From assembly GCA_031213475.1 (NCBI GenBank), contig JARUPZ010000006.1:868001-932000 (forward strand): a stretch of 64,000 bases of DNA. The letters are read 5' to 3'. This stretch comes from Nereocystis luetkeana. Taxonomy: Eukaryota; Sar; Phaeophyceae; Laminariales; Laminariaceae. A program made the position numbers and the translations under genes. This document shows positions 3,401-62,934 of this stretch, in pieces; position 1 is the stretch's first letter; every line of letters starts with the position of its first letter. Under the pieces are notes generated by a model. That model made no database searches, was not told the origin of the DNA, and saw nothing but the letters and a program-made list of their open reading frames with translations.

Positions 3401-6400
3401 GTGTCCTGGGTGTGTTCCCCAGGTGGCGTAGATGTCCTAGGTGTGTGGCAGGGAGACCGCACGCCGAATTTGCACTTTTGAATTATTTTTCATCGCAGAT
3501 TTCTCGCAGTGCTTCGTATTACGTACACATTTCGGGTAAGGTATTTGAGTTCGTACCTATACCCCGGCATTACTTCGACGGGTACACCTATGCCCTGGTA
3601 AGTATTGGAGCGACGCACCTATCGTACCTCAAACTGAGGTGAGGAACCGAGGTCCGTACCTAACGTACCTAACACTTTGGTAAGATATCGGGGCCCGTAG
3701 CTAACGTATCTAAAACTTAGGTAAGGTATTGGGGTCATCCCCAGGCTCGTACCCAAACCCGGGTATTTTGTCTACGGGTATACCCGATACCCGGGTAAGT
3801 ATTTGAGAGGTGTACGTATCGTGCCTGAAACAGGTAAGGTGTCGTGGTCCGTACCTAACGTACCTAACACTTACCTGATAGGTGAGGTATCGAGGTCCGT
3901 ACCTAACGTACCTATGCGTCGGGTACGGGTACATACCCGGGTATACTTACCTTACCCAACATACCCTCGATTTTTTGTCATTCCGGTATGTTTTCCTTCG
4001 TTTGTTTCGGTTGTTCTCTCTTTCATAAATTGTTAATGCCATTCTGGTCGTACCCGGTACGATGATATGGCATGGAATTGCTCACTGTGTAGCGATGAGA
4101 TATCTCCGTGTCGTGGTTTAGTGAGCACATACCTTGTATCTCTCCACGATTGAAGAATCGGCACGGACACTGGTTGTGCTGGATGTCGACGGGCAGAAAG
4201 AACGGTTTCAATGTGAAGAGAACAGACACCGCAAGTATTTTATACTCATTTAGGGCCCCGTCTTAACGAGAAACTTTTTCGTGATATTCGAATAGGAAAA
4301 AATGAATTTGATTTGATTTGAATAGAATTTCATGAAAACTATGTCTTTGGGTCCTATCGAGGACTATAGCGTATTTGGAAAATAAAACGAATACCTGGTA
4401 GCGCACAAGGGCCAACGAACACCCGAGGGCAACCAACGAGGCGAGCGACGGCCCGCGTCCTCCCCGGGGCGCCGCGGTCAGCGGCCGATTGTTTCTGCCG
4501 GCACCGCCGAAAAGACTATCGCTCTTGGGACGTCTTGGGTGGTCGGCGCAGGCCCGAAGCCCCACGCAGGCAGCAGCAACGGGGATACAGCGATCGAACA
4601 TCTGAGCAAGGTCGTGACCTGGTCGGCGCTCGCGTGGTTTGCAAGGCAAAGAGGGATGAAAAGCTGGGTTTGCGACGGCCCTGTAAAGTTTGAGGCGCCG
4701 CGGATGGTCTACTCTGTGCTGCGGGCCGTCGGACCTCACGCTGCGGCTACTCCAGTGGCCCAGTCTCTCGGGAATGGTGGATCTCACTTGTAAAGCAGTC
4801 GACGACACGACTCAAGTTTGCGTGGCTTGCTTCGGTTTCAGGAACATGCCACGTCGAGTTGAACAAACTCCCCAAATTGAATAATACGAAGAGCAAAATA
4901 AGTCCCAAAATACTTCTTGTCGAATCGTATTGTTTCGTTTTATTTGAATCAAGAGTCAAAATGCCTGCTTGGTGATTCACTTTTCGACCAATCAGATGCA
5001 AATCAAATCAGACGCAAAAACAATTGGCGGAGTATCATGAAAACAAAAATCTCCCATTAAGATGGGCCCTTAGACCATCCCATTCATCAGTTATTCGACA
5101 CTATGGTTGGCACACACTGGCTGTGTACGAACGACAAAGGGACTAACAGTAGTGCTAGATGACCAATGGTTGATTGGGTGTGTTGATTGATCTCTAAAGG
5201 TATAGACGCAGCTGGCACGGGAACGCGTGGTTGACTCCGGACAATAACACGGAACTCCTCTTATATATTATATACCCGACCTGTCGAGCCGACTCGTCTC
5301 ATATGGAGCTACAGCTAACGAGTGGCATTGGTGGGGTACACATTACCCCGATATCCCAATACCCTACTACCAGAATCCCTTTCCAGCATGGAACTCCTCA
5401 AACTGCGATGGATCTTTATGGATCGTGTTCTTGGGTACAATGTTACAGGGTCTGATTGCCTTTGAGGGTTTTGGGTGTACCAGGTATACAGGAACCCTCG
5501 ACAACCATATGGTGTCACTCCCCCTCGCCGCTGCTATCCCTGCCTTTGTCCTCAAATTATGCCTTCATTCATTTTTTTCTGCGGTGCCACTTTTCCCGGC
5601 CGTTCATTCCCGGTTACAGTACTTGGTGCTACTGCTGCTATTGTAGTTTTTTCATGTTGCTACGCTGATGCGCTGTTGTTGCTGCTTCATCCTATCTGCA
5701 TTTTTCCCCTATCACGGGGGACCATAGTAAATAGGACCAAATAGTGTTATAATAGTAAAAATAGGGAAATATGTAGGTTTTTGAGCGTACCGTAGGTCCT
5801 ATTTAATGTGGTTCCCCCTAATAACAGGTTGTTCCTATAAACATGGTTGCAGTTATTCGTAGTGAGGAGGGTTGCTTTCCGTTTATTCGACAAAAATGGT
5901 TGACACACACTGTGTACGAGACGAATAGAACTCACCCGAAGTATAAGCCAATCAGAGCAACCCTAGCCCTGAACCCAAGCCAATCAGACCAAATCTCGCA
6001 TAAGTGGTAAGGTCTACTGGTAGCTAGAACAGTGGTCGTTGAAGATTGTTCACCCGAGTTGCTTGCTGGTGCTGCGCTGCTGCTGTTTTGTTGTTGGTGC
6101 TGCCGCTGCCGCTGCCGCCGCTGCCCCTCCTGGTTTGTGTTGTATATGGTGTCCAGCATGCCGACATATCATAATATCGGGCTTCGACGTATCGCATCGA
6201 GCACCTTGTGCCCTCCCATGTATGTACCAGGTATCTCCTGTGGCATCCCCGTGTTTTATTTATTTGTGCTGGTCCTGGACGAAAAAATCGTCATGCCAGG
6301 TATACCAATCTGATGTTTCATGTGTAAATATCCTTTCGAACTCGATTCTCGCTCTACATAAATTATATCATACTCGATCTGATGTTTTAGTATCGATATC

Positions 6401-9400
6401 GTATCGAACTCGATCCAAAAATCAATCAATCATATCGTATATCAAAAGTGTCTGATGTTTTGTTTATCGATATCGTATCGAACTCGATCCAAAAATCAAT
6501 CAATCATGTCGTATATCGAAAGTGTCTGATGTTTTGTTTATCGATATCTCATCGAACTCGACCCACAATCAATCATCTATATCGTGGAACTCGATCCTAG
6601 ATTTTGTTTATCGATATCGCATCGAAGTCGACCCACAAATAATCTATTATATACCTGGTAGTAGAACTCGATAATATATTTTGCTGTCGATATCGTACCG
6701 AATTCGGTCCACAATCAACCAATTATTTAGTGGAATTCGATAATATATTTTGCTGTCGATATCGTACCGAATTCGGTCCACAATCAACCAATTATTTAGT
6801 GGAATTCGATCATGTGTTGTGCTGTCTGTATCGTATCGAAATCGATCCACAATCAATCAATCATATCGTATACCAGGTACCAGGTATCAAACTCGTGTGG
6901 TGTTGTGCTGTCGATATCGCATATCGTATCCCCAGGTACCAGGTATCCTACTGGTGTGATGTTTGCTGTCGATACCGGATCGAAATCGATCTGATGTTTC
7001 ATCGATATCATATCGAGCTCGTCATGACGTCTCCCTGATCGATATCGTATCGGTCTCGATCCACACTCGATCAACCGTATCGTATATCAAACTTGTCTGA
7101 TGTTTTTGATGTTTTATCTGTCGATATCATATCGCAGTCGACCCACAATCAGTCAATATTGATAGAATATCGAACTCGGTCGGGATCTTCATTTATCGGC
7201 GTCGCATTTTATTTTTGGTCTTCCTCTGTCTCTCAGTCTGTGACCACAGAATCAGTATCTCTCTAGGATAGGGGATCAGGACGGACACTGGGTGTGGTGC
7301 TGATGAAGCTGGGTAGAAAGGACGATTTAATGTGAAGACAACAACATGTCGAACTCGATATGATACTGACTTATCGATATCATTCATAACATGACAACTA
7401 TTACTACTGCACTGTCACCGCTGTCGCCCCTCATAACCGTTTTTATTGTATGTTTTTTTAATCTAATCAAAAGGTTCGCGTTGCAGCTGGGTGACGTGAT
7501 CGACGGGTGCAACAGACATGGGCAGTCCGAGCAGGCGCTGAGGAACGTGAAGGGGGAGTTGGACCGCCTTGCTGTGGGGCTGCCGCTGGGCGTCCTGAAC
7601 AGCTTGGGGAACCACGAGCTGTACAACTTTTCGAAGCGGCATTGGGCGAGAGAGGTGTGATTGGCGGTGGGCATCATATAAAAACTTTCGAACATATCGA
7701 TAGGTATCGAGCTGTCGATTGCGGGTGTTGGGGCATCGTATCGTCGAAAGTGTCGATACATTCGATAGGTATGGAACTTTCGATGTATCATATAAGACGT
7801 GTTTGGCCCTCCTACGATGGCATATCGTGTCGGACGCGCTCGGCTCTCCTATGAAACACCCCCCGGCATCCATCGGGTTTTCCATGCAGACACCGAACGA
7901 AAGCTTCGATGTATATATCTAATATCCAAATGGTATCGATTCGTTTTTTTTTTTGTTATCGGTATCGCATCAACTCATTTTTTTCATCCCGTGCTTGGCG
8001 CCGAGAATCGTACTTGCGAAAACAGACGAGACTCACCCGTGTCGTTTATCACCCCGCGATGAGTCATGACCACCCCGAGGCATCTTATCACCACCCGAGT
8101 TATCACCTTCCGAGATATCAACTTCGCGAGTTATCAATCACGACCCGAATGATCACAACCCGAGTTTTCACCACTCCTAAGTTATTAACTCGCTAGCTAT
8201 CACCACGCGAGTTATCACGTTGCGAGCGTTATCACCACCCAACTTATCGCTTCGCGAAATTGTCACCATCCGAGTTATCACAACCCAAGTGATCACTGCC
8301 CAAGTTATTAATCACCACCCGAGATACCACTTTGCGAATATTACCGCCACCCGAGTTGTGTCATCACCCAAGTTATCGCTTCGCGATGTTTTACAGTCCG
8401 GTTTACCACTACCCAAGTGATCACCACCCAAGTTATCACTTCGCGAGTTGTCACCATCCGAGTCATCACCTTCACCACCCAAGCAGTCACTACGCGAGTT
8501 GTCACCATCCGAAATATCACCGGGTTACGATTCGCACGGCTTCTTCCTTCATCCACCACGCCGATGACTATACCCCCCCCCCCCCCCCCCCCCGCCCTGT
8601 CTCGAAGGAGATGCGTGGTCAATGGTCAAATGCCTTAAGGCAAGCAAAACGTGAGTACGCCCCCGCCCCCCCCCCCTCTACCCGTTTCAAACATGCCTCT
8701 TCCAGATAGACTGCTCGACCCGTGCTAGAGCTGTCGCCCTTGCCCCAAGCACCATCGCACCGAGAGCACCCCTCGATGATGCGTCCCCGCCTCCTCCTCT
8801 TTCGGCTACGGCGGGTATCGTCAAGGAGGAGGTGGAGGGTCCGGGAAGCTCGACCGACTCGGACGGCGGCGGTGCGATTCCGAAAATGTCGAAGGAACGT
8901 TTCTACTACAGCTTTTGCCCCCACCCTCTGTACCGATTGGTGTCGCTGGACACGTACGATGTCAACGCCATAAGGGGGGGGCGGACAGAGGAGGGGCAGG
9001 AAGTGGTGGGAGAGGAGTGGGGAGGGGAGCGAGGGAGGGGAGTTAGTGATATGCCGCCGGAGAGGGGTGCGGTGGAGATACTGTCAGAGCAGAACCCGAA
9101 CGAGGATAAGAACGACTCGGAGGGCATGGAGGGTTTAAGCACAAGGTTTGGTGTGGAGTGGTGATGTGCGTCGGTTAATCAGCCAATCAAGCAATCAATC
9201 GACCAATCAATCAATCGATCGATCCATCCATCCATCCATCAAGCTTTCAAACACAATCCGTAAACATCAGATAATACAAAAAATCAATTAATGGATAAGG
9301 ATCAATCAATCGAATTCAACCGGTCGTCCAGTCAACCAAACGCACTGAAGCGATCAAAAACGATCTAAACCAGTCAATCAGTACATCAACCTCTCAACCA

Positions 9401-12400: not shown

Positions 12401-14307
12401 CTAATGCTTACCTGGTAAGAGATTTATTACGTACCATGTATACCGCCTCGAGTTCTTGTCTCTCGCCCCCCCCCCCCCCGTATGTACCCCCCCCCCCCCC
12501 CCCCCCCCCCCGCCCATACGACTACGGCCATGCATGATATCGAGTACCCCCGCCCCCCTGCCCCTCAGGAAGTGGCTACACGCGAAAATTGAATGAACTC
12601 ATTGAAGCTGTCATCCATAAGCAAGTCTGCCTCACAAGCGGTTCTTAGTAGGATGCAGCTCACGCTTCATGCGACTCGCCGAACACCTCACGGCGCTTCT
12701 AGTTTAGCGCAAACAATGTCTGCCTGGTCGGTGAAAACCCGACGTGCTCCGTCCCGGCATTGTAGGGATGAGAGGGTGTATGGTCATACGACTACGGCCA
12801 CGCATGAGGTCGAGTGCATCGCTCCTATCGAGTACATCCCTTCCCCCCCCCCCCCTCCGGTCCCTCTTCGGGATTTTTCCCGGAAGGGAAAATTCGTGTC
12901 TCGGTATTCGTGGGGGTGGGCGGGGGGGGGGGGGGGATAGTTTCCAACAACTTTCCCCGATATTTGTACGGAAACTGACCGCACGCACAGCTGTATCGGC
13001 TGGTCTATTCATGTTTACCCGGTGGGCTCCGCACAAACGTAACCGTCACATCGTTTTTTGACACACGTACCTGTCTGGTCGCGAAATCGTTGCGTGCCAA
13101 AAAAACTGTCAGAATTTGTAGACCGCTCTGAAACCTACACGCCCAGTTGTAAGACGTTGTGCTATTAATAGATATGTAGGTCATACGGCTTCCACACGGC
13201 AACATGAGCTACAGTAGCTAGATCATACTCGTACGGGTAAGGGATCTATTTGCCCTTAGGGGTCTAGATCATGAACTGTGGAATAGATGATCTGTAGATG
13301 ATCTGTCCGATTTATGGAACGTAGGTGATCTGTAGATGATCTGTCCGATTTGTGAAACGTTTCGGCTTGACCTTTTTCAGGACAAAAGCTGCGATTTCGT
13401 TTTTGGACACAGACCACTCTTGAACGGAAGTGCTGCAGCCCTATTAACAGAAGTTTTTTTTGCAGTCATCCTTGGAAATAGAACCGCGTCCTAAGAGTCT
13501 AAAGTGTGCTTTAAGGGGGGGCATACTATTGCGGGGGGGCAAAGTAAATAGGACCTACGTTACACACAAAAACTATACACTTCCCTATTGTTACTGACAA
13601 TATTCGGTCCTACTTGCTATGGTCCCCCGTAATAGGCGCAATCTAGAGACCAGTCGGCGTGGCAAGGGAGGAAAGGGCTGAAGTCTTCCCGCGATGAAAG
13701 TGTATAGCACGGACCGTAGTAGTGGGGAGGGCCTGCTCTGTGACCCTGGATCTCAGTTGCCACTACTAATAATAATGTTGATAGGAGGGAGAGAGGAAAG
13801 AAGGGCAAAGATAGTAAATGGGACGGAAAAAAGCAAACGAAGAAACAAAACGATCAGACCGGTAGAATGACGCGATGTTTTGAGTGAAAGCCCATCCCAC
13901 CGGCGCTCTATTGTGACCTGGCCTATAGATCTATCCCCCCCCCCCCCCTCTACGGGTCGTCGGTCATACGACTACGGCCGTGCATGAGATCGAGCACATC
14001 TCTCCTGTCGAGTACACTCCCCCCCCCCCCTCCATGGGTCATACGACTACGGCTATGCATGAGATCGAGTACATCTCTCCTATCGAGTACACCCCCCCCC
14101 CACCCTCTGCTCCGTCTCGAAAGGGATGCGTGGTCAATGGTCAAGTGACTAAGGCAAGCAACAAATGAGTACCCCCCCCCCCCCCCCCCCTTGCCCCCTT
14201 GCCCTCCGATCGCGCAGGAGGCTTTCGCGCGAATCGAAGTGCACGCGAACTGTCTGCAGCTGCGGGGACACGGGATCGTCGAAAGTCGAACCATGGCCCT
14301 TGTATGA
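1..14307 (+). CDS. ADPRM: ADPRM-like metallophosphatase gene (6 exons seen, 5' partial)
   Basis: Spliced gene, exons 1-479, 7474-7654, 8730-9145, 9526-9688, 11614-11751 and 14218-14307. They join in frame to 489 codons with a terminal TGA. All calcineurin-like metallophosphatase signatures appear in order: IADVQY (D119, Q121 of the window protein), LGDVIDG (D167, D170), LGNHELYN (N206, H207), GHVPIHP (H394) and SGHRHQ (H431, H433). The family, Mn-dependent ADP-ribose/CDP-alcohol diphosphatase, hydrolyses ADP-ribose, CDP-choline and related pyrophosphates. The match to it includes family-specific context: RRYYR after the first motif, NGG..KEQL.WL, LVWNYKD and HV.L. The N-terminus is longer than usual and Gln/Glu/Ser-rich. 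The reading frame is open to base 1 without a clear ATG, so the start lies upstream. Function is by family; splice sites are by eye. Confidence 0.9.
518..628 (+). repeat. Intron-edge repeat A (G-run + GTGTACTC), after ADPRM exon 1 donor
   Basis: GGGGGGGAAGGTGTACTCATA, CATGCATGGCCGCAATCGTA, ACCATAGACCCTCGCATCCC, CGGGACGGAGCACGTCGGG. It begins about 40 bases past the donor at 480, in the sense of the gene. Same element as at 1034-1255, 53853-54130 and the minus-strand copies in the PP2C introns. Confidence 0.8.
640..1033 (+). repeat. Degenerate copies of the exon-1 junction plus repeat A
   Basis: Around 672-700 (GATGAGAAGCATCCGGGTTTG), 852-912 (CAGTTGAGGCGGACGCTTGA, CACCTGGCTGCGG, ACGGAAGCACCAGGTTTG) and 990-1020 (GGGACGGAAAACATTCGGGTT) the sequence resembles the last ~50 coding bases and donor of ADPRM exon 1 (CAGGCGGGCCGTGGACTCCTGG ... 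GACGGAAGCATCAGGTGTG). Each is followed by a G-run and a piece of repeat A. Confidence 0.65.
1034..1255 (+). repeat. Intron-edge repeat A, full-length copy
   Basis: GGGGGGGTGTACACGATAGG, CTCGACCTCATGCATAGCCG, TAGTCGTATGACCATAGACC, TTTTCACCGACCAGGCAGA, CGCCGTGAGGTGTCTGGTGA, GCTGCATCCTACTAAGAACCG. About 220 bp, no coding content. Confidence 0.8.
1260..2479. other. No gene seen (ADPRM intron 1)
   Basis: Short open frames only. GCTGTGCTTGG..ACTCT.G..G.T..TTCGGCC is repeated twice near 1810-1920. Nothing else recognised. Confidence 0.5.
2480..2975 (+). repeat. Tandem array, GTACCTAACGTACCTAA units
   Basis: Degenerate ~40 bp units inside a ~210 bp higher-order unit marked by GTATTGATGTCGTCCCCAGG (2591), GTATTGAGGTCGTCCACAGG (2800) and CCCGGGTATTTTTTCGACGGG. 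The same array resumes at 3520-3966. Confidence 0.85.
2976..3519. other. Unassigned insert between two halves of an array
   Basis: A different sequence, with a 109-codon open frame on the minus strand (3462-3133) that matches nothing I recognise. It includes an imperfect inverted repeat around 3045-3100 (TACTGGCAGCATCTAT / CAGTAGATGCTGCTACTAG). Probably an insertion that split the array. Confidence 0.4.
3520..3966 (+). repeat. Tandem array, GTACCTAACGTACCTAA units (second half)
   Basis: Same units as 2480-2975: GTAAGTATTGGAGCGACGCA, GTCCGTACCTAACGTACC, GTATTGGGGTCATCCCCAGG, CCCGGGTATTTTGTCTACGGG. Confidence 0.85.
4135..4235 (-). repeat. GTCGACATCCAGCAC family copy
   Basis: CACGGACACTGGTTGTGCTGG, ATGTCGACGGGCAGAAAGAAC and TTCAATGTGAAGAGAACA match, in reverse, copies at 7235-7345, 36128-36240, 42465-42525, 44005-44110, 55905-56010 and 59530-59650. 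A ~110 bp non-coding dispersed repeat. Confidence 0.65.
4253..5069 (+). mobile_element. 817 bp inverted-repeat element with TTA target duplication
   Basis: GGGCCCCGTCTTAACGAGAAAC at the left matches the reverse of the right end (GGGCCCATCTTAATGGGAGA) over about 40 imperfect positions. TTA is repeated at 4250-4252 and 5070-5072. A TWA target suits PIF/Harbinger-type elements. The centre (4400-4800) is GC-rich, with an 84-codon open frame at 4539-4793 and a 181-codon frame opposite; neither resembles a known transposase. Non-autonomous by appearance. Confidence 0.75.
5712..5821 (+). mobile_element. MITE family F1 copy
   Basis: About 110 bp, near-palindromic, TCACGGGGGACCATAGTAA at one end and ATTTAATGTGGTTCCCCCTAA at the other, with TA directly repeated on both sides (5710-5711, 5822-5823). 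No coding capacity. The TA target points to a Tc1/mariner-type source. Confidence 0.85.
6330..7190 (+). repeat. Tandem array, TCGATATCGTATCGAACTCG units
   Basis: About ten degenerate 75-85 bp units: GTTTATCGATATCGTATCGA, ACTCGATCCACAATCAATCA, TATCGTATATCAAA, TGTCTGATGTTTT. A near-exact pair lies at 6667-6735 and 6736-6805. Individual units carry CCAGGTA insertions at TA (6652, 6871, 6937). Confidence 0.88.
7235..7345 (-). repeat. GTCGACATCCAGCAC family copy
   Basis: GTGACCACAGAATCAGTATC, GGACGGACACTGGGTGTGG, GCTGGGTAGAAAGGACGATT, TAATGTGAAGACAACA. Near the end of ADPRM intron 1. Confidence 0.65.
7474..7654 (+). CDS. ADPRM: ADPRM exon 2
   Basis: Carries the second and third metal-binding motifs, LGDVIDG and LGNHELYNF. 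The acceptor is aatcaaaag before G; AG from exon 1 plus this G gives Arg, followed by FALQLGDVIDG, which keeps the family spacing. The donor is GAGAGAG before gtgtga, phase 0. The 6,994-base intron before it holds several repeat arrays, and its 3' end is T-rich with no G/C-run repeat. Confidence 0.9.
8040..8530 (+). repeat. Tandem array, TTATCACCACCCGAG units
   Basis: Roughly 25 degenerate 15-20 bp units (GAGTTATCACCA, CTTCGCGAGTTGTCACCATCC). In ADPRM intron 2. The 125- and 115-codon frames across it are by-products of the repeat. Confidence 0.85.
8595..8665 (+). repeat. Intron-edge repeat B (GAGTACGCCCC end), before ADPRM exon 3
   Basis: CTCGAAGGAGATGCGTGGTC, AATGGTCAAATGCCTTAAGG, CAAGCAAAACGTGAGTACGCC, then a C-run. 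It ends about 65 bases before the exon 3 acceptor. A separate C-run lies at 8573-8593. Confidence 0.75.
8730..9145 (+). CDS. ADPRM: ADPRM exon 3 with a low-complexity insert
   Basis: Encodes KERFYYSFCPHPLYRLVSLD and TYDVNAI, the strand and loop between GNHE and the C-terminal motifs, then an acidic/Gly-rich stretch and ILSEQNPNEDKN...GLSTR. The usual family has a short linker here, so about 30 Glu/Gly-rich residues are extra. I place the start at 8730 (gtgctag before AGC) because the frame has a stop at 8727. 8751 (ccccaag before CAC) is an equally in-frame alternative. The donor CACAAG before gttt leaves two bases. Confidence 0.8.
9160..9480 (+). repeat. CAATCAATCGATC-rich array filling ADPRM intron 3
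   Basis: Degenerate CAATCAATCGACC units, with CCATCCATCCATCC at 9223-9239. The whole 380-base intron is built of it. Confidence 0.8.
9526..9688 (+). CDS. ADPRM: ADPRM exon 4
   Basis: Encodes FVLYNGGVGKEQLLWLEKEL, then VIAFGHVPIHP and CLVWNYKD. The His of GHVPIHP is the fourth conserved metal-binding motif. The acceptor is gtgtcaag before G, restoring Arg with the AG of exon 3. The donor is AAAGAT before gtgcgt, phase 0. The intron before it is short (380 bases) and made of CAATCAATC repeats. Confidence 0.93.
9952..10053 (+). mobile_element. MITE family F1 copy
   Basis: GAGGGGGTCATAGTTAATGG ... CTATTTACTATGGCCCCCCG with the internal ACACAAAAACCTATATA core shared by the family. Lies in ADPRM intron 4. 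Confidence 0.8.
11090..11290 (-). repeat. Intron-edge repeat A, reversed copy in ADPRM intron 4
   Basis: CTTGGTGCAAGCACTATCTTC, GTCCCGGTATTGTAGGGATG, CGGTCATACGACTACGTCCA, ATGATCTCGAGTACCCTCCC, then ~25 Cs. Confidence 0.75.
11383..11487 (+). mobile_element. MITE family F1 copy
   Basis: TTACGGGGGACCATAGTAAAC ends against GTACTATGGCCCCCCGAAA, flanked by TA. In ADPRM intron 4, immediately before the GAGTAC repeat that leads into exon 5. Confidence 0.85.
11498..11592 (+). repeat. Intron-edge repeat B, before ADPRM exon 5
   Basis: GGTGCTCCGTCTATTAATAGC, AAGGGATGCGTGATCAATGG, TCAAATGACTACTGTAGGAC, AAGCAACAAACGAGTACGCC, C-rich end, then the acceptor at 11613. Contains TATTAATA and TACTGTA (11550-11556) where the 14.1 kb copy and others have TA. 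Confidence 0.8.
11614..11751 (+). CDS. ADPRM: ADPRM exon 5, with a GC donor
   Basis: Encodes VLEVMHQFDCVAMFLSGHRH, the last catalytic motif (H431/H433), then HVSLAAALEAPPDQ. The acceptor is ctcggaag before GTG. Reading on past 11751 keeps the frame open to a stop at 11881, but those residues no longer fit the family. The junction CCAG before gcgagt, a non-canonical GC donor, joins in phase 0 to exon 6 and gives APPDQ-EAFARIEV, which fits the family's APP..AFG.V segment. Confidence 0.87.
11975..12185 (-). mobile_element. F3 copy
   Basis: Reverse orientation: GTTGCCGGGTGGGAACC, GGATCTGTGTACTGCACAGATC, GCGGCAGGTGAGGAGGAACTA, then CATCTACTGTATACAGAT. In ADPRM intron 5. Confidence 0.6.
12480..12860 (-). 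repeat. Intron-edge repeat A, two reversed copies in ADPRM intron 5
   Basis: A short copy at about 12512-12565 follows a 24-base C-run. A full copy at 12635-12860 runs AGTAGGATGCAGCTCACGC, CGCCGAACACCTCACGGCG, TGTAGGGATGAGAGGGTGTA, TATCGAGTACATCCCTTCCC, C-run. Followed by a G-run at 12917-12936. Confidence 0.78.
13190..13345 (+). mobile_element. F3 copy, 3' part duplicated
   Basis: GGCAACATGAGCTACAGTAGC, TAGATCATACTCG, AGGGATCTATTTG, then two tandem GATCTGTAGATGATCTGTCC ends (about 13285 and 13328). Contains TACAGTA at 13210-13216 where sisters have TA. Confidence 0.6.
13529..13633 (+). mobile_element. MITE family F1 copy
   Basis: TTGCGGGGGGGCAAAGTAAAT ... CTATGGTCCCCCGTAA, flanked by TA on both sides. 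In ADPRM intron 5. Confidence 0.85.
13937..14104 (-). repeat. Intron-edge repeat A, two tandem terminal fragments
   Basis: Two copies of GTCATACGACTACGGC(C/T), (G)TGCATGAGATCGAG, ACATCTCTCCT, TCGAGTACAC plus a C-run, at 13965-14032 and 14037-14100, directly before repeat B. Confidence 0.78.
14105..14192 (+). repeat. Intron-edge repeat B, before ADPRM exon 6
   Basis: TGCTCCGTCTCGAAAGGGATG, CGTGGTCAATGGTCAAGTGA, CTAAGGCAAGCAACAAATGAG, TAC and a ~20-base C-run ending 27 bases before the acceptor. Confidence 0.82.
14218..14307 (+). CDS. ADPRM: ADPRM exon 6, C-terminus
   Basis: After gatcgcgcag the frame reads EAFARIEVHANCLQLRGHG, then IVESRTMALV and TGA at 14305-14307. The pattern AF..V.V....L.L.G.G.V..R is the known C-terminal strand pair and Arg of the ADPRM family. 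A long C-run (14172-14190) ending the GAGTAC repeat lies directly upstream of the acceptor. Confidence 0.85.
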   Translation, partial: EAFARIEVHANCLQLRGHGIVESRTMALV

Positions 14308-16254: not shown

Positions 16255-17716
16255 GGTGTTGTGTGCGTTTCCATTCCTGGTTTGGTACCGCGGAATACGC
16301 GCCAGGTGTTGGGTAGGACCAGATTTTGTGTACGAGGAGCGTGACTTGATCCAACGAACAAACATACTTGTGTGAGGCAAGAGGTTTGGACGTACCAGGT
16401 AGCACATTTGTTTTTCCCGGTATTTTTATTGAAGGGGGGGGTGACTGATCAGCGTCTTGCCCACTTGGGGGTGAAGCTCAGCTTTATCCTTGAGCAAGAG
16501 CCCTGTCACACGTATTGTTACTTTTTACTTTTTACTCATTTTTTTTGGTGGTTTCCGTTTTTGACTATTTTAGAGTGTATTTTTTTTGTGATTTCCGTTT
16601 CTGATTATTTTAGAGCTTGTGCCTACAGGGCATATAGCGTTGCATACGGCACCTGTCGAGGTCCAGTGCAAGAAATATGGTGTCACAACTCGTCCAAGGT
16701 TTAAGAGTATACCGGTGTCTTTGTTATTGTTTATGGGGAGGACTGGCTGAGTTGCTCTGCTGCTGCTTGCTGTTGCTCGCTGTTGCTTGCTGCTGAAGTT
16801 CTTGCTTGCTTCTGCTGCTTGCTGCTGCTGGTGGTGCTTGAGTTTATGGTGGTAAGACGTGTATTAGCATAGCTGGGTTGAGTCCGCAACTAACTGCACA
16901 CGTCCCGCGATTACAGTACTACTGTACCATAGTCGATGCTCCCCCCCCCACGCAACTGCTATCAAAACAAAACGATACGGAGACGAGGGATTGGCTCTCT
17001 ACAGGATCTTTTCATTGCTACCTCCGAACCAGAAAGTGGAAGCCATCGTTACAGTTCGAGCCACCTATTTTTAATAGGAAACTATTATTGCTGTCTTATT
17101 TTGGGCCATGCACAACTTTTTACACATGTGAGGCAGGGTGTGTCCTACATGTGCGATATACAAATTAGCTTTGTTTTGTTTCGTGCAAGAAAGTTCGAGC
17201 CAAAACAATATCGGGTTCTTGAATCGACGGTTGCCGCTTACTACTGTCCTACTACTCGCTGTGCTGTCCCACTTACTGCACTCGTACTCAGTGTACCCGG
17301 TCGCACAGGATGGGCTTTGCTTCGTCGTGCTTGGCGTGCTCGCACGCTAAAATACTAATCGGAAAGTGGGTGCCTTCGGTGCTTGCTTAAGAAAAAGATG
17401 GATGATGTGCTATCAAGCGCGCTTGTTGTGAGAGAAATAAGAAAGGCTTTGCGTACGTACGTACAGTAGCTCTCGCTAGAAACTCCCGCTGTAGGACACT
17501 TTTTATGTGTAAACTGCCCTCAACTACGGTTACATACAAGGAGTAGCTGTGGGCGCTGGTGGAGGTGGATGGCATTAAAAATGACAAGAACTTTTTTTTT
17601 TTCGTTTTTTTGTTTCGTTTCGGTCGAAAGACGCGGATCTCTGAGTCAATTGACCTGTCCCCTACCAAATATATATTTTAGCGGCCGTGTAAGATAGCAA
17701 CAGGGGCCCCTATGGT
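16255..17716. other. No gene seen
   Basis: T-rich stretches, a GCTTGCTGCTGC patch at 16755-16835, and unassigned short frames (up to 140 codons at 16936-17358) without recognisable domains. TACAGTACTACTGTA-like sequence at 16912-16926. Confidence 0.5.
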
Positions 17717-19452
17717 GCAGGGCTCTTCACGGGCCAGGAAAGTTTTGAAACCTCATGGGTCGGGTCGGGTCAGGAGGCTCACGGGTCGGTGCGGGTCACA
17801 ACTCTCACCTAGGACAGATCACGATCTAGATCATCTAGATCATTTTTCACAGATACGTAAAAGTTGTGCACAAGACCTAGATCATACAGATCCCACCCAG
17901 CGAAACATGTGCAGATCATGCAGCTCACACAGATCCCATCAGGCAAACATATGCAATTCAGGCAGATCATAAAGATCTCACCTTCTGAAACATGTGCAGA
18001 TCACGCTCCCACCTGGCGAAACATGTACCAGGTATGTATGATCTAGATCATGCAGATCCCACCCACCGAAACATGTATGTAAGATCTAGACGAAACATGT
18101 ATGTAAGATCTAGATCATAAAGATCCCTCCGGGCATATATGATCTAGATCTCGCGGATCATATATATCCCACCAGGCAAACATGTGCAGATCAGGAATCC
18201 TACAGATCGTACCCGGGCAAACATGTATGCAAGATCTAGATCATGCAGACCCCATCTGGTGAAACATGTGCAGATCACGCACATCATACAGATCCCACCG
18301 GGCGAACATGTGCAGATCATGCAGATCATCATGAAGATCCCACCTACCTGGCGAAACGTGTTTGTAAGATCTAGATCATACAGATCCCACTCGGGCAAAC
18401 GTGTGCGTAAGGTCTAGATCATATAGATCCCACACGGGCAAACGTGTGTGCAAGATCCAACTCGATCGGTTCGCCTGTGAGATCCACCGAGGAATCCACT
18501 TCCGGCCCGCTGCCGACATCATATATCTGCTGCCCCAGTGCCACTATCGGAGCTGCCGCCCCCGACAGTTGTCATGCCGTACGTGGTTTGTATGCGACGG
18601 CGTGCTTGTGCAGCTGTGGCTGTGTGGTTGATGGGGGGGGGCTTGATGAGCTGCTAGCCACCACCACCACCGTGGGCTGCGATGTCGTCAGTGTATGTCA
18701 GATCTCGTACACAACGGTTCCGATATACATGAGCCAACGCAAATAATTGCCCGCGAGCAAACATAACGTGTACATCTTTATCTGCGAGTGAGTACAATGT
18801 GGCAGTTTGTACAGATCATACAGATCCCAGATGGCAAACATGTGCAAATCACCCAGACACCTGGCGAAACATGTACAAATCATGGAGATGATACAGATCC
18901 TACCCGGCGAAACATGTATGAAAGATCTAGATCATACAGATCCCACTTCATGAAACATGTGCAGATCATACAGATCTGCAGATCCCACCGTGCGAAACAT
19001 GTATGTATGATCTAGATCATGCAGATCCCACCCACCGGAACATGTATGTAAGATCTAGATCATGCAGATTCCTCCAAGCATATATGATCTAAATTTCGCA
19101 GATGATCGTATATATCTCACCAGTCAAACATGCGCAGACAGATCACACAGATCATGCCCGGGCAAACGTGTGTGTAAGATCTAGATCATATAGATTCCAC
19201 CCACAGAAACATGTACATAATATCTAGATCATACAGATCCCACCCAGGCAAGCGTGTACATTGGATCTAGATCGCACAGATCCTATACGGCAAACATGAT
19301 CTAGATCCCGCAGATCCCTGTAGATCAGGGATATGTCTGCCCCAAAAGATCTAGATACCGAAAATGGGATCTGATATGTCCTAGGTGTGCAATCTTACCC
19401 GACCTGACCTGGCCCTGGAGTTTGGTCTGCCCGACTCCGTGAACAGCCCTGC
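17717..19452 (+). mobile_element. GCAGGGCTGTTCACGG element split by a nested satellite-like element
   Basis: Ends GCAGGGCTCTTCACGGG (17717-17733) and CCGTGAACAGCCCTGC (19437-19452) are inverted. Inner arms are CGGGTCGGGT-rich, as in the smaller relatives at 46595-46803 and about 33400-33570. Between the arms lies the array at 17806-19387. Confidence 0.72.
17806..19387 (+). repeat. GATCTAGATCAT satellite-like array with perfect terminal inverted repeats
   Basis: About 1.58 kb of degenerate 40-60 bp units built on AGATCTAGATCATACAGATC, CCCACC.GGC and AAACATGTGCAGATCAT, in several tens of copies. The array is closed by CACCTAGGACA at 17806-17816 and its exact complement TGTCCTAGGTG at 19377-19387. 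Its units share words with the dispersed GACAGATCATC family, so it may be an internally amplified member. No spacers of equal length, so not a CRISPR array. Confidence 0.85.
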
Positions 19453-39159: not shown

Positions 39160-41220
39160 CGGGGAGTACATACTGTAGTCAAAGAAGAGGAAATACGCGC
39201 CGGAAGCGCAACGTAAGGAAGCTGAACGAGCTGAACGACACGCAAGCAGCATGACGATTGAAACGCGTAAAAAAAACGCTCGGACGAAACCTGGGGTGCA
39301 CGCTCTTCCTGTTATTGGTAGACGCTTTTGCTGGTTGTCTAGTCGAATTGGCAGGTCCCAACCGACGTCGTATCAGACAGTATGTCTACGTTAGAGTATT
39401 CACAAGAGACGGCTCGAGAGCAATGCGACGCCACATAGGGGCCGTGCCTTATTTCCCTTGGTGCTAATAACAGTAGTACTAATAAGACACGGCTCATGAG
39501 GACGCGGTTCTCACTTGTTTTCGTCATAGAGTAGCCTCTGGGTCTCACAAAGGCCCATGCCCATCATGCTCGCATATCATTCAACATATTTTGTTTTTTG
39601 TGGACGAACTACTTAGAATTTCAGAGGTTTGTCCCCAAAGCGGGACTGCAGTCCTAAAAGGCTTAAAAGAGCATAAATTGGTATTACGGGGGACTATACC
39701 AGGTAGTTAATAGGACCAAATATTGTTAGTAAAAATAGCGGAAAATATAGGTTTTAGTGTGTGCGTAGGTCCCCTATTTAATATGGTCCCCCGTAATAGT
39801 ATATAATTGGGGGCTTTTGGGGCGCGAAAGTAGCATAATTGGATTACCTTTTTGAGGAGCATTACAGGCACAACTGGGCGAAAATTAGGACCACATCAAG
39901 CATAACACGATAGGAAAAAACAAACAAACAAACATAAACTCTATTTTTTGGAACAACCAAAAACAGAATGGATACACGCCTTGTCTCAAACCTCGTAAAT
40001 ATAAAATAACCAAACATGCCGGTTGCCGGTACTCTTGACACCAACGACGGACAGCCGCCGTGGAGCTTGCGGCGTCTGGGAACTATCCACTGGAATACCC
40101 ACGGGTTTACCACCGATATGTAGGCGTGAAGCTCTTACTTGAACCGTGACATGTGACCGACGCAGACACTTGGGGAACGTCATCGCTCAAGACGCATTCA
40201 ATCGCACTTCTGTTTCTCTCTTTGAATCGATCTGGGTCTAACAACCGAGAGGAGGGGTACAGCGATGCCAGCCCCGGGTCCTGCCGAGTTCAGGGTTGTA
40301 GACGTAGCGCTGGGGCCGAATCGTGTCCTCGCGACGACATCATAAACTCCCTGAACCATTTTTCGGGGGAACCTAGTAACATATACCAGGGTATGGTATG
40401 GTAGCATTGAGAACCAAATACGACGTGTTGATATAGGGGGATACATCGTTTTCGGGTCTATACATCGTGGGCTCCGATTAGTGCGCCCCCCTTCGCAACA
40501 GAACGAGTGCGTTAACTGAAAAGAGGCCTTAACCTTGACGGGTCCAAAACCAACACCGGGAAAGATAGCGGGAGACGGCGTAGACATCAGAACCAACAAT
40601 GGAGTGGAAACATTCTGGGTCCACCGTGGCCGCTGAATACTGTGGCCCTCCGCAGTACACAGTACACCGACCGTCAACCGACAGTTTCGATCTACCGTGC
40701 CCAAGAGGGTCGCGACCTAAACAACAGTACACCAAGAAAGGACAAGCCCGTACAACATTCATACCTTCATCTGCATCGGCTTGAGTGCAGGTGCTGGCTC
40801 GTCTGGCGGTGGGGGTTGCCCATATGTGCCAGAAGACTCGACGTCCGTAGCTGGGCGGACAAGAAACAACATAGAACAGATGGGGAAAATGTTTTCAACA
40901 TCGTGACGCAAGAAGTCGGGGGCGGGGGACGGCAAGCCACTGGTCAGAATAATGGCGACAGCAGCAGTAGCAGCAGTAGCTCTTTTTTATAGCAGCAGGT
41001 TTTTGTTGCATCCAGTGAAGTTATTTAGTCAGCAGTTGCGTTCTGATGTATCCCATAAGTCGACTGATTACATTCCGACTGCTCCCACATTTCCGGGATA
41101 CAGTATTAACACTTAATACCACTATACTATTGACATTTGAAACCAACAGTTTACTGCGGAGACAGCAACAAGGCACACCCCGGACATCTGATCGATGCCC
41201 ACGTGATGACCTACTCTGTA
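39160..41220. other. No gene seen
   Basis: Contains the F1 copy at 39684-39796, a GCAGCAGTAGCAGCAGTAGC patch at 40963-40982, and a 168-codon minus-strand frame (40704-40198) without recognisable domains. Confidence 0.5.
39684..39796 (+). mobile_element. MITE family F1 copy carrying a CCAGG micro-insertion
   Basis: Normal ends (TTACGGGGGAC ... GGTCCCCCGTAA). The segment that reads CATAGTTAATAGG in sisters reads CTATACCAGGTAGTTAATAGG here: TA has become TACCAGGTA at 39697-39705. Confidence 0.88.
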
Positions 41221-45260: not shown

Positions 45261-45624
45261 TGTGCTCATGTTGCGTCTGGCTGCTATGTTCACTGAACGG
45301 AGTATTCCCCGACACCACCACCAACACCACCGCGCCCACTTCGCCCTCGCTGTAACCAACATAGTAGTCAAACGACTTGACCCGCCATCGTGCGAATATG
45401 CGGCCGAAGTCACATAATACCAGGTACATGCAGCTGATGAAACAATGGTCTGAAATGTTTACGGATCATAATGAAAAAAAAATGTACCCGGTACCAACCA
45501 CTACAACTAATATAGTGGGATACGAATAATCTCGGCCAAAACGAGCGACAAACAAAGGAATGTGGCACAGGGAGAGAGAACATGACAAGGCAAAAATTAC
45601 CATTGCCATTTTTGCGATGGGTAA

Positions 45625-45819: not shown

Positions 45820-46485
45820 ATGCGCCAAATACACCGCACACACCGCACGCATCGCCGAAACCAACATAGACAACATATAACATCTACACCACAATCGATA
45901 GGATGCACGGCCTATACTACATACACAGCATACTTCACATACACAGTATACACCACATGAAGCGGCATACACATAGATCAGCATAGACCTCGAGCACATA
46001 TCATACACCAGCATTGACCAGGTACCGCACAGGAACACTACAAACGCCGCATAAGCCTTCTACACGAACATAGACCAGCATATACCAATGACACCGCATA
46101 CACCACATATTACTGTAGCACATACACCGCATACACTGCAACACTTCCTACATGAAGACAGTCCATATGCACCATATTACACACCATATACACCACGTAC
46201 ACCGCAGAGTGGCACATAAACCGCATACCCCACGAACACCACACGTCGATACATACTATTTAATAGGCATTGTGTATACCAGGTATAAATCATGTTTGGT
46301 ACGCCGCATACGCACACCTTGTTACGCAACATAGGCCGAACAGATCAACACATATTATTTACATGAATCACATACACAGCGCATACAAAACATACAGCGC
46401 ATACAACCCATACACCGCATACACATTATACAGACCTCGTATAGCACATACACCGCATACACAGAAGTATCGCCACATTCTGCGT
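45820..46485 (+). repeat. Tandem array, CACCGCATACACCACATACA units
   Basis: About 30 degenerate ~13-20 bp units (CATACACCGCATACAC, ACAGCATACTTCACATACAC). CCAGGTA sits inside the array at 46277-46285. Confidence 0.85.
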
Positions 46486-47153: not shown

Positions 47154-47839
47154 AAGACCATTTGTACGTAAAAGATGGGAGGGGGGGGGGGGCATTCCGG
47201 CAGCAGGCGGGACTATCTCGCCAATGCCAGGAAAAAGGCCACCAGTGGACAAAATACCATGTACACTGGTAATATGGTTATACCGTATCGTGATATCACG
47301 TACCCGTATGATCGGCAACACCTCATGACAACATACCCGTGTGACTGAACGCCAAACGGATCTACCTGGTAAAGGCGGTTGGACCCCTTGATCGACGTCC
47401 CCCTACACTAAAACTAGTATATTGACCCCCTTGGGGCTTCAGAGGGAAAAGTGACCATAGCAAGGTGACGTCCACTGCGTGATTGGTGTCTGATACTGGT
47501 ACGTGATACTGATAGTGATATTATTCATAGTACGCCCCCGATACACAATGCAAGGACGTGCCCAGCACGAGCCCACCCGTACTGCTGTACTACTAACACA
47601 GACGGCTGGCAACACCAACTACATCATTTGCTTTGGGTCGCTATCGAAAAGGGGTGTACCAGACAGAGCGGGTAATGCCAAAAGAGGCCCTGTCTGACCT
47701 GCCCAAGAAGACTTGACCTGCTGTACGTACAAGAGACCCGTCTTCCAAGACGGGGGGTGATAGCAATACATAGTAATACATAGTAATAGATGGTAGACAG
47801 GTCCCACGATGGACCCGAAAAAATAGGCATCCCTCTTAT

Positions 47840-48000
47840 CACATTTTTGCGCGCTGTATTTTAAAATTACTACTGCTGTATACCTGGTATGTTAGTTACT
47901 ACGCGTTACTACTGTATCACATTTTTGCGCGCCGTATTTGATTAAAATTACTAAATTACTACGCATTACTATATATTACCACGTATGCTTGCGCACCAAA
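47840..48000 (+). repeat. Duplicated CACATTTTTGCGCGC segment
   Basis: TCACATTTTTGCGCGCTGTA (47840) and TCACATTTTTGCGCGCCGTA (47919), each followed by ATTAAAATTACTA. The first copy has TGCTGTATACCTGGTATG where the second runs on as AATTACTACGC. Confidence 0.7.
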
Positions 48001-48197
48001 TTTGGTTCTGGTTACCATTAATATGTTCCCCCGGTAGAGCATCGTTGAACGGAGTCACCTCGTATGTTAAACCCAGGGGACACGTGGCGTGAACATTTTT
48101 TTTTTTTTATTACTACCAGGTACCTGGTAAAAAAAAATTCTTTGTCTCATTTATTATCTTCGCCTGGCGTCACATGTCTACATACCAAAATACAGTA

Positions 48198-48301: not shown

Positions 48302-49225
48302 GGTAAGCTCTTGTCCTCCCTCCCCACTACGGTTCGTGCCTCGGTACAGCTTACCAGGTACCACCTTTAAGAGATTTGGTCTGATTGGCTCGGGGTCAGG
48401 GCTAGGGTTGTTATTATTGGCTTAGGGTTAGGATCAGGGTTACTGCTGTAGTTTGTATTGCTCTCCTATACAGCAGTTTATGTGTCAACCATTTTCTCGG
48501 ACAAGTGGGAAGCAACTTTCTCGCGCCTTGTCTGTTGGTGGCGAGAAGACAGCAGCAGTAGCCCTTATTCTTCCCTCGCCGGCTAGTGTCAGCTTGCATG
48601 CACAAAGAAATACATACTTACCTTACCGGAAGTACCACGACGTCAGGAATGTAAGGGCCGTTTGTGTATCAGTGTTGATACCTAAACTGTCCTTACAGTT
48701 CCGGCCGGAGGCACAGAGAAGGTATCAGATCAGAAAGTGGGGCGTGACACACCACTCTGTCCGAAAATTTAAGATACGTTAGGTTATAAACATAAACATG
48801 TAACCGGTCATTACAAATCCGACAAGTCCGGACAGACGTAGACCGGTCTGTCTACAGTCTCTCGATGCAGATGATAGACACAAGAGTCCGGAGTAGTGGC
48901 CGTCGACAGCGAAAAACAAACACACAAACGAACCAGGTAAGTACCAGTACTTGCGTAGGCGAGACTCGAATTAACTCTGATCGGAGGCAGAAAGAGAGTC
49001 CACACGCCCAACGTCACACGCTCAACGTCCGCCGGTTTTTTGTATCAAACCCCGCCCTGACTGACACCGATTTCGTATTCTTACGATAAATCCGTCAAGT
49101 TTCATTTCGTTTTTTGTTAGGGTCGGCCATTTCGTTTCTTCTTTCTCTGGCCGAGAATCATGTTACGCCTGCTTGGGTCTATGTTGGGGCTAAAAACTGG
49201 ATATACGGCCGAAAAAAAAACCCCA

Positions 49226-53457: not shown

Positions 53458-53852
53458 CTATTACCGGTGCGTTCAACCCCTGTAAAGACCATTCCACACT
53501 AATTCCAGGTGATTTGTCGCCGAAACGGGAGTACAGCAGTGTTGATAAGGCTCGAAATAAATTACAGTAGCGTCACACCGACCATCAAGGTAAGAGCCGT
53601 TAGGAATTCATACTCGTATGTAGCAGCATATATCAAAGTAGCACCCAAACGACCGTTACGTGTCCAGACAGGATAAACATACCAGGTAGAAGGTACATGC
53701 CTGGTAAACGCATAATATTAATTAAGATTACCTGGTAGTACAGTAGTAGTCAGTCTTTCCGATTCTGACCAAAAAAAGATAAATAGTACCAATACCTTGC
53801 TTCCAGTCTTGCCCCCCCCCCCCCTTCCTGTCTTGCTCCGACTGCTCTTGGG

Positions 53853-55905: not shown

Positions 55906-57139
55906 CCGACGTGTCACCACGAAGCAGGTACGAGCTCTCTGGGATAAATATCCAGCGCGGGCACTGGGTGTGCTGATGCCGTTGGGGAGAAAAAAACTCC
56001 GAGGAACCCATTGTAGTGTATTTATAGATGCGCACACAGCAGTAGGCGTTTCGTCAAAATCTACAAACGACTTCGAACTAGAGTCAGTGATTTGCAAACA
56101 ACACCCGTTCTTCAAAATGCCAGTAAAAACTGCTGCACAGAAACAATAATCCAGAGCTTTTTACTACCTGGTAAACCCCCTCTTGCCCTTTTTTGGGCCC
56201 AATACCTCTCTTACTACCTCTCACGGGAACGTGATTTTGTTTTCCACACTTTTGTCGGTTACGTCAGCTTACTATTGATACTGTACTTCAAGGCGTCCGT
56301 CAGAAAACCGACATTTTTTTAGGCGAAAGCCGATTTTCATCTGTGATGTATATGCCCATAGTATAATATACTATTATTAAATAATAGGCTTCGACAGGTC
56401 AAGCGAAGCAAATCTCCACTTTTGCGGGGGGGGGGGGGGGTTGCTGCCGGCTCGCAACTTCGAGTTCGAGAAAAACACCCCTTGATTCGTTTTTGGCTGC
56501 CCACGATTGGTGTCTTGGCGCACCCGACGACTTTACACAACCCATACGGAGCGTGCTTCAATTCGGCGGGGCTGTGGTTGCTTGTGAGGAGCTAGAGTTG
56601 TCCGCAAGCCAAGGGCACATATTTAGCTGGGGATCGTTCATCGTCTCACTTTGACCAATTTTCGACCACTGGAGCACTCCAAGGTCGAGGTGTAGGTACC
56701 CTGTTGAGGGAGCGCGGAAGACCAATCTGGAGAGAATTACAAGCTGATGTGCATGACACGATGAGCTGATACAGTACACCCGCTTTCTGTTACTGTAGGA
56801 CACCAACCAGCCGAAGGTCCAAACGCAGTGTGTCAAAACAGCGGCGCGATCGACCGCACCGACAGAGCATTTAGACATGACAACCACCTGGAAACCCGGG
56901 GACGGGGAGTGGATAAGATCCTCCGTGGTCTTTTTGTGGAGACAGCACAAACACAGGCACGTGTATGATATTATATCACTGTTTTGGTATACTAAGTACC
57001 AGTACCAAGAAATACTGTTGGTGTTGCCGTTGCTGCTGTTAGTGCTGTTGCTGTCGTCGTTGGTGCTCGATGTGTTGCTGCTGTTGTCGTCGTAGTTCTG
57101 CACACTGCTGCCGCTGCCGCTGCTGCTGCTGCTGCTGGT

Positions 57140-59060: not shown

Positions 59061-59172
59061 TTAACTGGGGACCTTATCAAATACCTGGTAAGACGTACGG
59101 AAATACAAAAACCTGTATGATTCGCTATTTTTACCAACAATATCTGGTCCTATTTACTATGGTCCCCCGTAA
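59061..59172 (+). mobile_element. MITE family F1 copy carrying a CCTGG micro-insertion
   Basis: Left arm mutated (TTAACTGGGGACC), right arm intact (TACTATGGTCCCCCGTAA). At 59082-59090 the family's AAATAGGAC reads AAATACCTGGTAAGAC, i.e. TA replaced by TACCTGGTA. Confidence 0.85.
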
Positions 59173-59650: not shown

Positions 59651-59659
59651 AAAGAAAGC

Positions 59660-61000: not shown

Positions 61001-61185
61001 TGCCACCGCAACATGTCGTACCTGGTAGTGTGTATGTTATCCTACAGGATGAACCCAACGGTATCGGAAATCGCGCCCAAATCAGTGCGGAGTGCGGTCC
61101 ACTATTAACAAGAAAACACCACTACAGTATACAAACCCAGGAAATATTATCCCATTTCATCCTGACCCCAGAGTAGAAACGGTCA

Positions 61186-61276
61186 CTAAATTACGGGCCA
61201 AATATTTCAACATAATCCTCGTTCGACGTTCACACCAGAGATCGAATGGGGTATTGTATTTCCGGTCAAAGTGGTA
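61186..61276 (+). mobile_element. F4 copy, diverged
   Basis: GTCACTAAATTACGGGCCAAA ... TATTTCCGGTCAAAGTGGTA; arms match the F4 ends imperfectly. Further weak copies lie near 39090-39156, 48636-48720 and 53575-53675. Confidence 0.5.
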
Positions 61277-61540
61277 TGTCGGTTGACGGCCACGAAATAG
61301 TATTGACACGTCATGGCCCACGTAGAACTAATATACTATATTGAGGGCGGGGAATTCATTGACGGTTGTTTTTGACGGCTGTCCTTAACGGATGTCTTCG
61401 ACGGCTGTCGGTCAAGGGGCAAGAGTGCCGTTAACCATTGCACCATACCAGGGTATTTGCTTAATACACGCCGTCCATATATAATAAAAAAACGGTTTTT
61501 TTAATTCTTGATACAATACCTGGTACAGCAGCATATAATA

Positions 61541-61720
61541 GTGGGGTCGCGATATTGGATGGCAATACGACGACTCGTACTCATGCTGCCTGCGCATGCG
61601 CTGTACTGCTGTTCCTTGCATTCTACTCAAGTGGGGTCGCGATATTGGATGGCAATACGACGACTCGTACTCATGCTGCCTGCGCATGCGCTGTACTGCT
61701 GTTCCTTGCATTCTACTCAA
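61541..61720 (+). repeat. Perfect 2 x 90 bp tandem duplication
   Basis: 61541-61630 and 61631-61720 appear identical base for base (GTGGGGTCGCGATATTGGAT ... GCATTCTACTCAA). Contains CTGCGCATGCGCTG. Zero divergence implies a very recent duplication or an assembly artefact. Confidence 0.95.
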
Positions 61721-61899
61721 AGGGGCACAAAAAAATCACGAAATCCACTACTGCTGTAGTTTCATGCGGCTGATGCTGTAATCGTAAAAACATCTCGTCG
61801 CTTATGGCTGTAATCGTAAATCATTTCCGTTTCTTTCCAAGTCTCGAAGAGAAAATAAATTGATAGGGCCATGAGTGGGGTGACTATAACGGCAACCAC

Positions 61900-62003
61900 T
61901 ACCGGGTACCATAGTAAATAGTACCTACGGTACGCACAAAAACCTATGTATTTCCCTATTTTTACCAACAATGTTTGGTCCTATTTACTATGGTCCCCCG
62001 TGA
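61900..62003 (+). mobile_element. MITE family F1 copy
   Basis: ACCGGGTACCATAGTAAATAG to TTTACTATGGTCCCCCGTGA, TA on the right flank, family core CCAACAATGTTTGGTCC present. Confidence 0.82.
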
Positions 62004-62164
62004 TAGTTATTGCTTGGGGTAGGCATTACAGAGCAGTTGTTAGTTGCGCGCGGAAATTTTGTAGAGCACTGCGTCTTGGTATCTCGATCTGGCAGGCGTT
62101 CGTAGCTCCATGTAATTCTTTTTTATATGTGGTACGTCAGCTATTAATAGCTGGGCCTTGCCGT

Positions 62165-62425
62165 CACCGAACTAACAATTAGTTGGCTCACATCACCAAT
62201 CAACTAAGAATTAGTTGGCTTACTTCACCACCCAACTATTAATACTAATTAGTTGGCTTACTTTTCGCCACCAACCAACCAAATACTTGGCTGACGTCGC
62301 CACCCAACAAACAATTAATTGGCCTACCCTTTTCTTCGCCACCCAAATTAGTTGGCTTACTTCAACCACCCAACTCACAATTCGATGGCTTGCTTCGCCA
62401 TCCAACAATTAACAGGCCATCGAGT
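62165..62425 (+). repeat. Tandem array, AATTAGTTGGCTTACTTCACCACCCAACT units
   Basis: About six degenerate ~45 bp units (CAACTAAGAATTAGTTGGC, TTACTTCACCACCCAACTAT, ATTAATTGGCCTACC). TATTAATA at 62235 sits where others have TA. Confidence 0.85.
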
Positions 62426-62934
62426 CCAGTCAGCTCACAGCCCCCCAAAACAGAAAATGTCTACCAGGGTACTCATCAAAGACACGAAGCACAACCAGGG
62501 TCCGTACATACCCTCATACCCTCATATCAGATAGAAAAAGTGCTCGTGCGAACCTGATACGTACCTGGTAGTTCATACGGATTGTTCTTCTAGAAGAGAA
62601 ACAACTTCCGTGGAAAACAAACTCTTATTACCAGGTAATACTCTCTCATTGCTGCAACCTACCGTGCACCGTCTGTACCAGGAATGAATACTATTAATAA
62701 CATACCAGGCGCGACACACCAGATATTAATTAATTGAATACTACACGTACAGGTTATGGAGCAGTATTACATACCAGCACGAGGTACTCATACACTCGTA
62801 CACAACTCTGGAACGAAGCATAATGAGGATCGCTTATTCATAATGACGAAGATCAAATGATCCTTGACATCTCCGCCCTGAGAGCGAGTCGCTAAATTAC
62901 TAAATTACACGGCTATTACCAACACATAAACACA

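Follow-up and report, generated by a model that had tools for sequence, protein, structure and literature searches.

In the passages of the cited papers that concern excision, Sleeping Beauty and mariner elements insert at TA dinucleotides and leave by staggered cuts, the first nick falling three bases inside the element. The element bases that remain as 3' overhangs end up between two TAs by end joining and make up the footprint (PMC7827188), which for Sleeping Beauty is given as TAG(T/A)CTA (PMC2874221). For Stowaway elements, the inferred footprints have 2-4 bp on one side plus 1-2 bp on the opposite side, and the same work describes a case in which an element had inserted anew at the TA of an earlier footprint (PMC1925063). 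Osmar5 and Ppmar2 leave 1-4 nt behind (PMC9632168), Passer, a pogo element, 0-4 bp (PMC9976928) and ZB 0-3 bp, the Tc1/mariner range being stated as 2-4 bp (PMC7913693). In Ectocarpus, Mariner-Tc1 elements comprise 17 families and 11,912 copies, or 1.43% of the genome (PMC12477816). Here, we describe the motif TACCWGGTA, referred to as a scar, in a stretch of 64,000 nucleotides from Nereocystis luetkeana (C6:868001-932000, the window) and across the complete assembly, which comprises 1987 contigs and 465,085,209 bp. The scar is a clean 7-bp gain at TA, and it was probably left by the excision of a cut-and-paste DNA transposon that targets TA and works like Tc1/mariner elements, a likeness of mechanism and not a claim of identity. 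Among the papers listed in literature searches, none was seen to report TACCWGGTA as a footprint, or such a scar load. The letters TACCAGGTA/TACCTGGTA are found in 217 papers, and the 20 listed among these look unrelated by title.

Abundance and clean insertion at TA

The window contains 29 exact scars, while 100 dinucleotide shuffles averaged 0.52 and never gave more than 4 (0/100 reach 29), and TACCWGGTA takes first place when the near-palindromic 9-mers of the window are ranked. An earlier note on this DNA had counted at least 28 copies against about 0.5 by chance, in agreement with these numbers; its 28 sites are real, but it overlooked the one at 4392 and gave 62572 for the one at 62562. 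The excess is also far above expectation genome-wide, with 182,395 sites against 1,744 for a reversed-pattern control (~105-fold), i.e., one per ~2.5 kb. Two samples were used below: 264 kb, consisting of the window and loci L001-L020, and 304 kb, to which L021-L024 were added; these four were picked for scar density and are therefore non-random. In the 264-kb sample, 86 scars are seen where a second-order Markov model expects 2.5, and the density is patchy, ranging from 0 to 10 per 10-kb stretch across L001-L020.

TACCAGGTA is the reverse complement of TACCTGGTA, and the motif is self-complementary except for the central base; the A-centred and T-centred motifs are one allele read from either strand. 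The 17:12 ratio of central A to T in the window therefore reflects strand orientation only and is uninformative on mismatch repair, of which the earlier note had taken the two centres as a sign. TACCAGGGTA/TACCCTGGTA are enriched too (10 vs 0.46 expected in 264 kb), compatible with joining that keeps one extra end base.

Aligned repeat copies from different repeat families show the change from TA to TA-CCAGG-TA, that is, an insertion at TA with the TA duplicated, as in a Tc1/mariner footprint. The scar at 18026 and its sister unit near 18997, from which the 7 bp are absent, have an identical junction (22/22 positions), compared with the unit at 7043-7104 the pair at 6871/6878 adds 7 bp twice, and the repeat unit at 6652 is 7 bp longer than the neighbouring units. 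Two copies of F1, a miniature inverted-repeat transposable element (MITE), bear scars at 39697 and 59082 where their relatives have a plain TA. The sister-repeat alignments of the earlier note (18026, 6871/6878, 39697 and 59082) were redone, and each of them is consistent with a gain of 7 bp at TA. We also removed CCWGGTA in silico and searched with the flanks for copies of the empty site; for L005:1888, the copy without the 7 bp matches at 22/22 positions.

The flanks of unrelated scar sites have nothing obvious in common, and no shared flank family beyond local tandem repeats was found around scars in the 264-kb sample. This speaks against full scars being the ends of an element hidden among these sites, and also against the motif being part of longer conserved units. 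In the same sample, 109 one-mismatch variants were counted where 46 are expected, and each of the five symmetrised positions contributes to the excess (seen/expected 22/12.4, 26/11.7, 31/9.8, 17/10.5 and 13/1.8), with no strong functional constraint seen. By a hand estimate the decay is ~8% per base, assuming that every scar started exact. With unrelated flanks and decayed variants at every position, the scar is not a conserved motif.

Target sites and the origin of the scars

Immediately next to the scars in the window, the bases at -1 and -2 match those of all TA dinucleotides (p=0.996 and 0.93). In the 264-kb sample, T is enriched at -7 (p 6e-11) and A at -6 (p 1.5e-9), and weaker deviations (p 0.001 to 0.011) occur at -1, -2, -5, -8 and -9. 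When offsets 2-30 are scanned, TA at 7 bp has the top ratio (58 vs 12.9 expected), with a weaker excess at offsets 2-4 (21/13.2, 27/15.2 and 26/14.6). For the 304-kb sample, duplicate palindrome arms were masked, and sites were left out if they were in tandem (21) or had scar-like neighbours (11); among the remaining 90 targets offset 7 is still the highest of offsets 2-40 (37 vs 13.8 expected). The number of scars per 1000 TA is 4.03 for TAs without a TA neighbour at 7 bp (57/14138), 17.5 for those with one (29/1660) and 66.7 for those with two (4/60). The signature is present separately in the window (0.185 vs 0.086), L001-L020 (0.34 vs 0.071) and L021-L024 (0.186 vs 0.087). Such a two-fold symmetric signature would be expected from a dimeric transposase acting at the target.

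In the scar itself, two TAs stand 7 bp from each other, and partly for this reason the scar looks like a good target for further insertion. Adjacent pairs, written TACCWGGTACCWGGTA, make up 11 cases among the 122 scars of the masked 304-kb sample (AA 6, TT 2, AT 3), and L020 holds one triple scar. On contig C1, 8 tandem pairs were counted by eye among the first 100 sites listed, 5 of these within L021-L023. By hand arithmetic, the 244 scar TAs at 5.7 scars per 1000 TA would give ~1.4 pairs, and the one-neighbour rate at most ~4. As three pairs are of mixed orientation, slippage of one 7-bp unit cannot be their origin.

We suggest that an element enters at TA and duplicates it, and that upon excision the TA and a short piece of the element end would stay on each flank. 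Once the flanks are joined, TA-CCAGG-TA would result, 7 bp longer than the original TA. Two variants would produce identical letters: either 3' overhangs of five bases (CCAGG) pair over their full length, which would explain the dominance of one form, or three-base CCA overhangs overlap by their last base and the gaps are filled. The element would favour TAs with further TAs at a distance of exactly 7 bp, and because the scar recreates this spacing, scars would be re-hit, which may be the main cause of the tandem scars. The earlier note had read the motif as an excision scar or a minimal 7-bp insert. The first view is supported by the clean TA insertion, the near-palindrome, the unrelated flanks, the neutral-looking decay and the symmetric target signature; the 5-base overhang of the note is one of at least two possible lengths, as CCA overhangs sharing their last base would give the same scar.

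More tentatively, and with somewhat less than even confidence, it can be speculated that this transposon, which may have 5-nt overhangs of unusual length, leaves a scar that rebuilds its preferred target TA-N5-TA and seeds more scars, and that it has written ~182,000 of them with few or no full-length copies left visible. If so, excision made ~182,000 7-bp indels in one lineage, a mutational force invisible to repeat annotation because no element stays at the site, and a scar of this kind, which restores the target site and thereby attracts another insertion, would add a new form to cut-and-paste transposition. The scars would then be countable and roughly datable records of excision, and transposition rate, target choice and repair outcome would be measurable from sequence alone.

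Several observations weigh against an origin by excision. So many scars without a visible element is unusual. The source element with CCAGG ends predicted by the earlier note was not found in 304 kb: no element ending in TACCWGG...CCWGGTA was recognised there (126 scars before masking), although this absence is weakly tested. Inverted ends of the form TA-CCNGG...CCNGG-TA were scanned in the window, in the window with L001-L020 (804 pairs) and in the 304-kb sample (1406 pairs), and a scan for any TA-flanked inverted ends gave 287 hits, its results holding among the matches listed. The best candidate, L014:6568-9378, has 17/25 matches beyond CCNGG (chance ~0.006-0.03 over 804 pairs), and its terminal pattern has 320 genome matches (157+163, at most 3 mismatches) against 0 in the control, the left-end form occurring once among the 100 places listed. 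However, the DNA outside its right end is conserved for ~145-150 bp between four fetched copies and L014, thus this end is an internal part of a larger repeat and not a terminus, and the sole terminus candidate failed; outside the left end of L014, nothing but stretches of 29 and 44 bp matches the other copies. PF13358 (DDE_3) has 0 matches in the genome. PF03184 (DDE_1) has 28, and no CCWGG-ended inverted repeat was seen near it at 6 fetched loci with 1.5 kb of flank each. A homologous copy spanning the site is available at only 10 of the 86 sites in 264 kb, and 6 passed the clean-empty filter; the empty-site match is 22/22 for 18026 and L005 and 21/22 for 39697, but only 17-18/22 for 59082, L012 and L001, the last two falling in repetitive sequence. 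Slippage may add to the 8 of 11 tandem pairs that share one orientation. Finally, one form dominates here, while known footprints, in the accounts cited above, are mixtures.

Some of these points would fit an enzyme that inserts CCAGGTA itself at TA, either RNA-templated or as a transposase placing an end remnant, so that the full-length element was never at most sites. The insert is highly uniform, and the 182,395 copies stand beside no recognised full-length match in the 304-kb sample. We nevertheless consider direct insertion unlikely, as a near-palindromic insert and a symmetric target signature are expected from paired transposase ends, and as the absence of the element rests on a limited search; we know of no enzyme with direct 7-bp insertion activity. 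TA duplication is also found outside Tc1/mariner, and the scar could be the footprint of another TA-using DDE element, or of a domesticated transposase performing regulated excision. The single dominant form, unlike the mixed Tc1/mariner footprints described in the passages cited, would agree with this. However, positive evidence for another superfamily was not found, and five bases between TAs lies within some reported mariner-type footprints (PMC1925063), which makes such an origin quite improbable.

A palindromic 9-mer is typical of dimer sites, and a selected protein-binding or regulatory motif could have spread by point mutation and selection. The clean 7-bp insertion alleles, the decay at all positions and the density of the sites across the genome are hard to reconcile with it, and we regard it as very unlikely. 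Chance, base composition, tandem repeats or an assembly artefact can practically be dismissed: tandem repeats are plentiful in the window, but the shuffles, the second-order Markov expectation, the reversed-pattern control and the unrelated flanks at scattered loci all argue against it. Excision from TA by a transposon working like Tc1/mariner thus remains the reading that we favour.

Scar sites and other features

Positions of the scars in the window
Feature	Position	Strand	Basis
TACCWGGTA scar	4392..4400	.	exact match; absent from the earlier list
TACCWGGTA scar	5478..5486	.	exact match
TACCWGGTA scar	6225..6233	.	exact match
TACCWGGTA scar, 7-bp insertion vs sister repeat units	6652..6660	.	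exact match and repeat alignment
two overlapping scars TACCAGGTACCAGGTA	6871..6886	.	both missing from sister unit 7043-7104
TACCWGGTA scar	6937..6945	.	exact match
TACCWGGTA scar	12409..12417	.	exact match
TACCWGGTA scar	16393..16401	.	exact match
scar in 43-bp tandem repeat	18026..18034	.	empty TA copy near 18997, 22/22 around junction
TACCWGGTA scar	29149..29157	.	exact match
TACCWGGTA scar	34012..34020	.	exact match
TACCWGGTA scar	34943..34951	.	exact match
scar within F1 MITE copy	39697..39705	.	plain TA in other F1 copies, best 21/22
TACCWGGTA scar	45418..45426	.	exact match
TACCWGGTA scar	46277..46285	.	exact match
TACCWGGTA scar	47363..47371	.	exact match
TACCWGGTA scar	47881..47889	.	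exact match
two overlapping scars TACCAGGTACCTGGTA, opposite orientations	48114..48129	.	exact match
TACCWGGTA scar	48352..48360	.	exact match
TACCWGGTA scar	53680..53688	.	exact match
TACCWGGTA scar	53729..53737	.	exact match
TACCWGGTA scar	56165..56173	.	exact match
scar within F1 MITE copy	59082..59090	.	best empty match 18/22
TACCWGGTA scar	61019..61027	.	exact match
TACCWGGTA scar	61517..61525	.	exact match
TACCWGGTA scar	62562..62570	.	exact match (62572 in the earlier list)
TACCWGGTA scar	62629..62637	.	exact match

The F1 MITE is ~110 bp long, has the ends TTACGGGGGACCATAG and is flanked by TA; it lies at 39684-39800 of the window and in more than 10 further places, also in sampled loci. 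Its pattern was scanned against viral contigs, with no match. In L026, a further F1 copy seems by eye to be scarred at 2269, and the same locus has an open frame around a PF03184 match (L026:955-2157), which by eye resembles the Tigger/jerky type. The repeat shared by L031-L034 and L014 has ~320 matches to TACCAGGGTCNANNNGACGATNNNACNTGTAC (at most 3 mismatches), and the five copies compared are 84-97% alike over the aligned parts. Large near-palindromes are found at L021:4560-6116 and L022:4637-9781, with arms 96% and 94% identical, within 20 kb of contig C1. Two other candidates for the element were rejected: L021:5156-5489 belongs to a large palindrome, of which it forms the inner part, and a family of half-sites with three copies is a CAG-type repeat that looks coding by eye.

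Two further motifs contain paired TAs. TACWGTA is a second, weaker class, with 39 sites in the window against 7.5 expected (e.g., 11550, 32997 and 41264) and 121 in the 264-kb sample, and it has strong C/G flanks (CTACWGTAG). In repeats, some of these sites resemble 5-bp insertions at TA, which may point to another element with 3-nt footprints. TATTAATA, often as CTATTAATAG, is ~34-fold over the second-order Markov expectation (53 sites in 264 kb; in the window at 11511, 13163, 50865, 54409, 62142 and others) and may represent a third footprint class of the TA-X-TA type, with X=TTAA. The window also has a long open frame (51184-53385, minus strand) that encodes a reverse transcriptase domain (PF00078). 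Several of its close relatives join reverse transcriptase to PF03372, as in a long interspersed nuclear element (LINE), and its best species-labelled matches are in Ectocarpus sp. CCAP 1310/34, while three unlabelled matches score higher.

Comparison with described footprints

Of the Sleeping Beauty and mariner footprints, the form TA-C(A/T)G-TA is a 3-nt version of the present scar. There, three bases lie between the TAs and the transposon is known, while here there are five, and the passages on these elements cited above mention no genome-wide scar load of the present size. Passer and ZB are cut-and-paste elements that target TA and leave short footprints, as is proposed here, but theirs are shorter. 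Ectocarpus is a brown alga rich in Tc1/mariner elements, and in the main text of PMC12477816 the words 'footprint' and 'excision' occur 0 times.

Five nucleotides between TAs, compared with the reported 2-4 bp, 0-4 bp and 1-4 nt, is long for such a footprint, yet not unheard of: the 2-4 plus 1-2 bp given for Stowaway put five bases within reach (PMC1925063). Stowaway, Osmar5 and Ppmar2 leave fragments of the element ends between TAs, as is proposed for the scars described here. However, their footprints take variable forms, while in N. luetkeana a single five-base form is dominant and is accompanied by a strong signature of TA at 7 bp.

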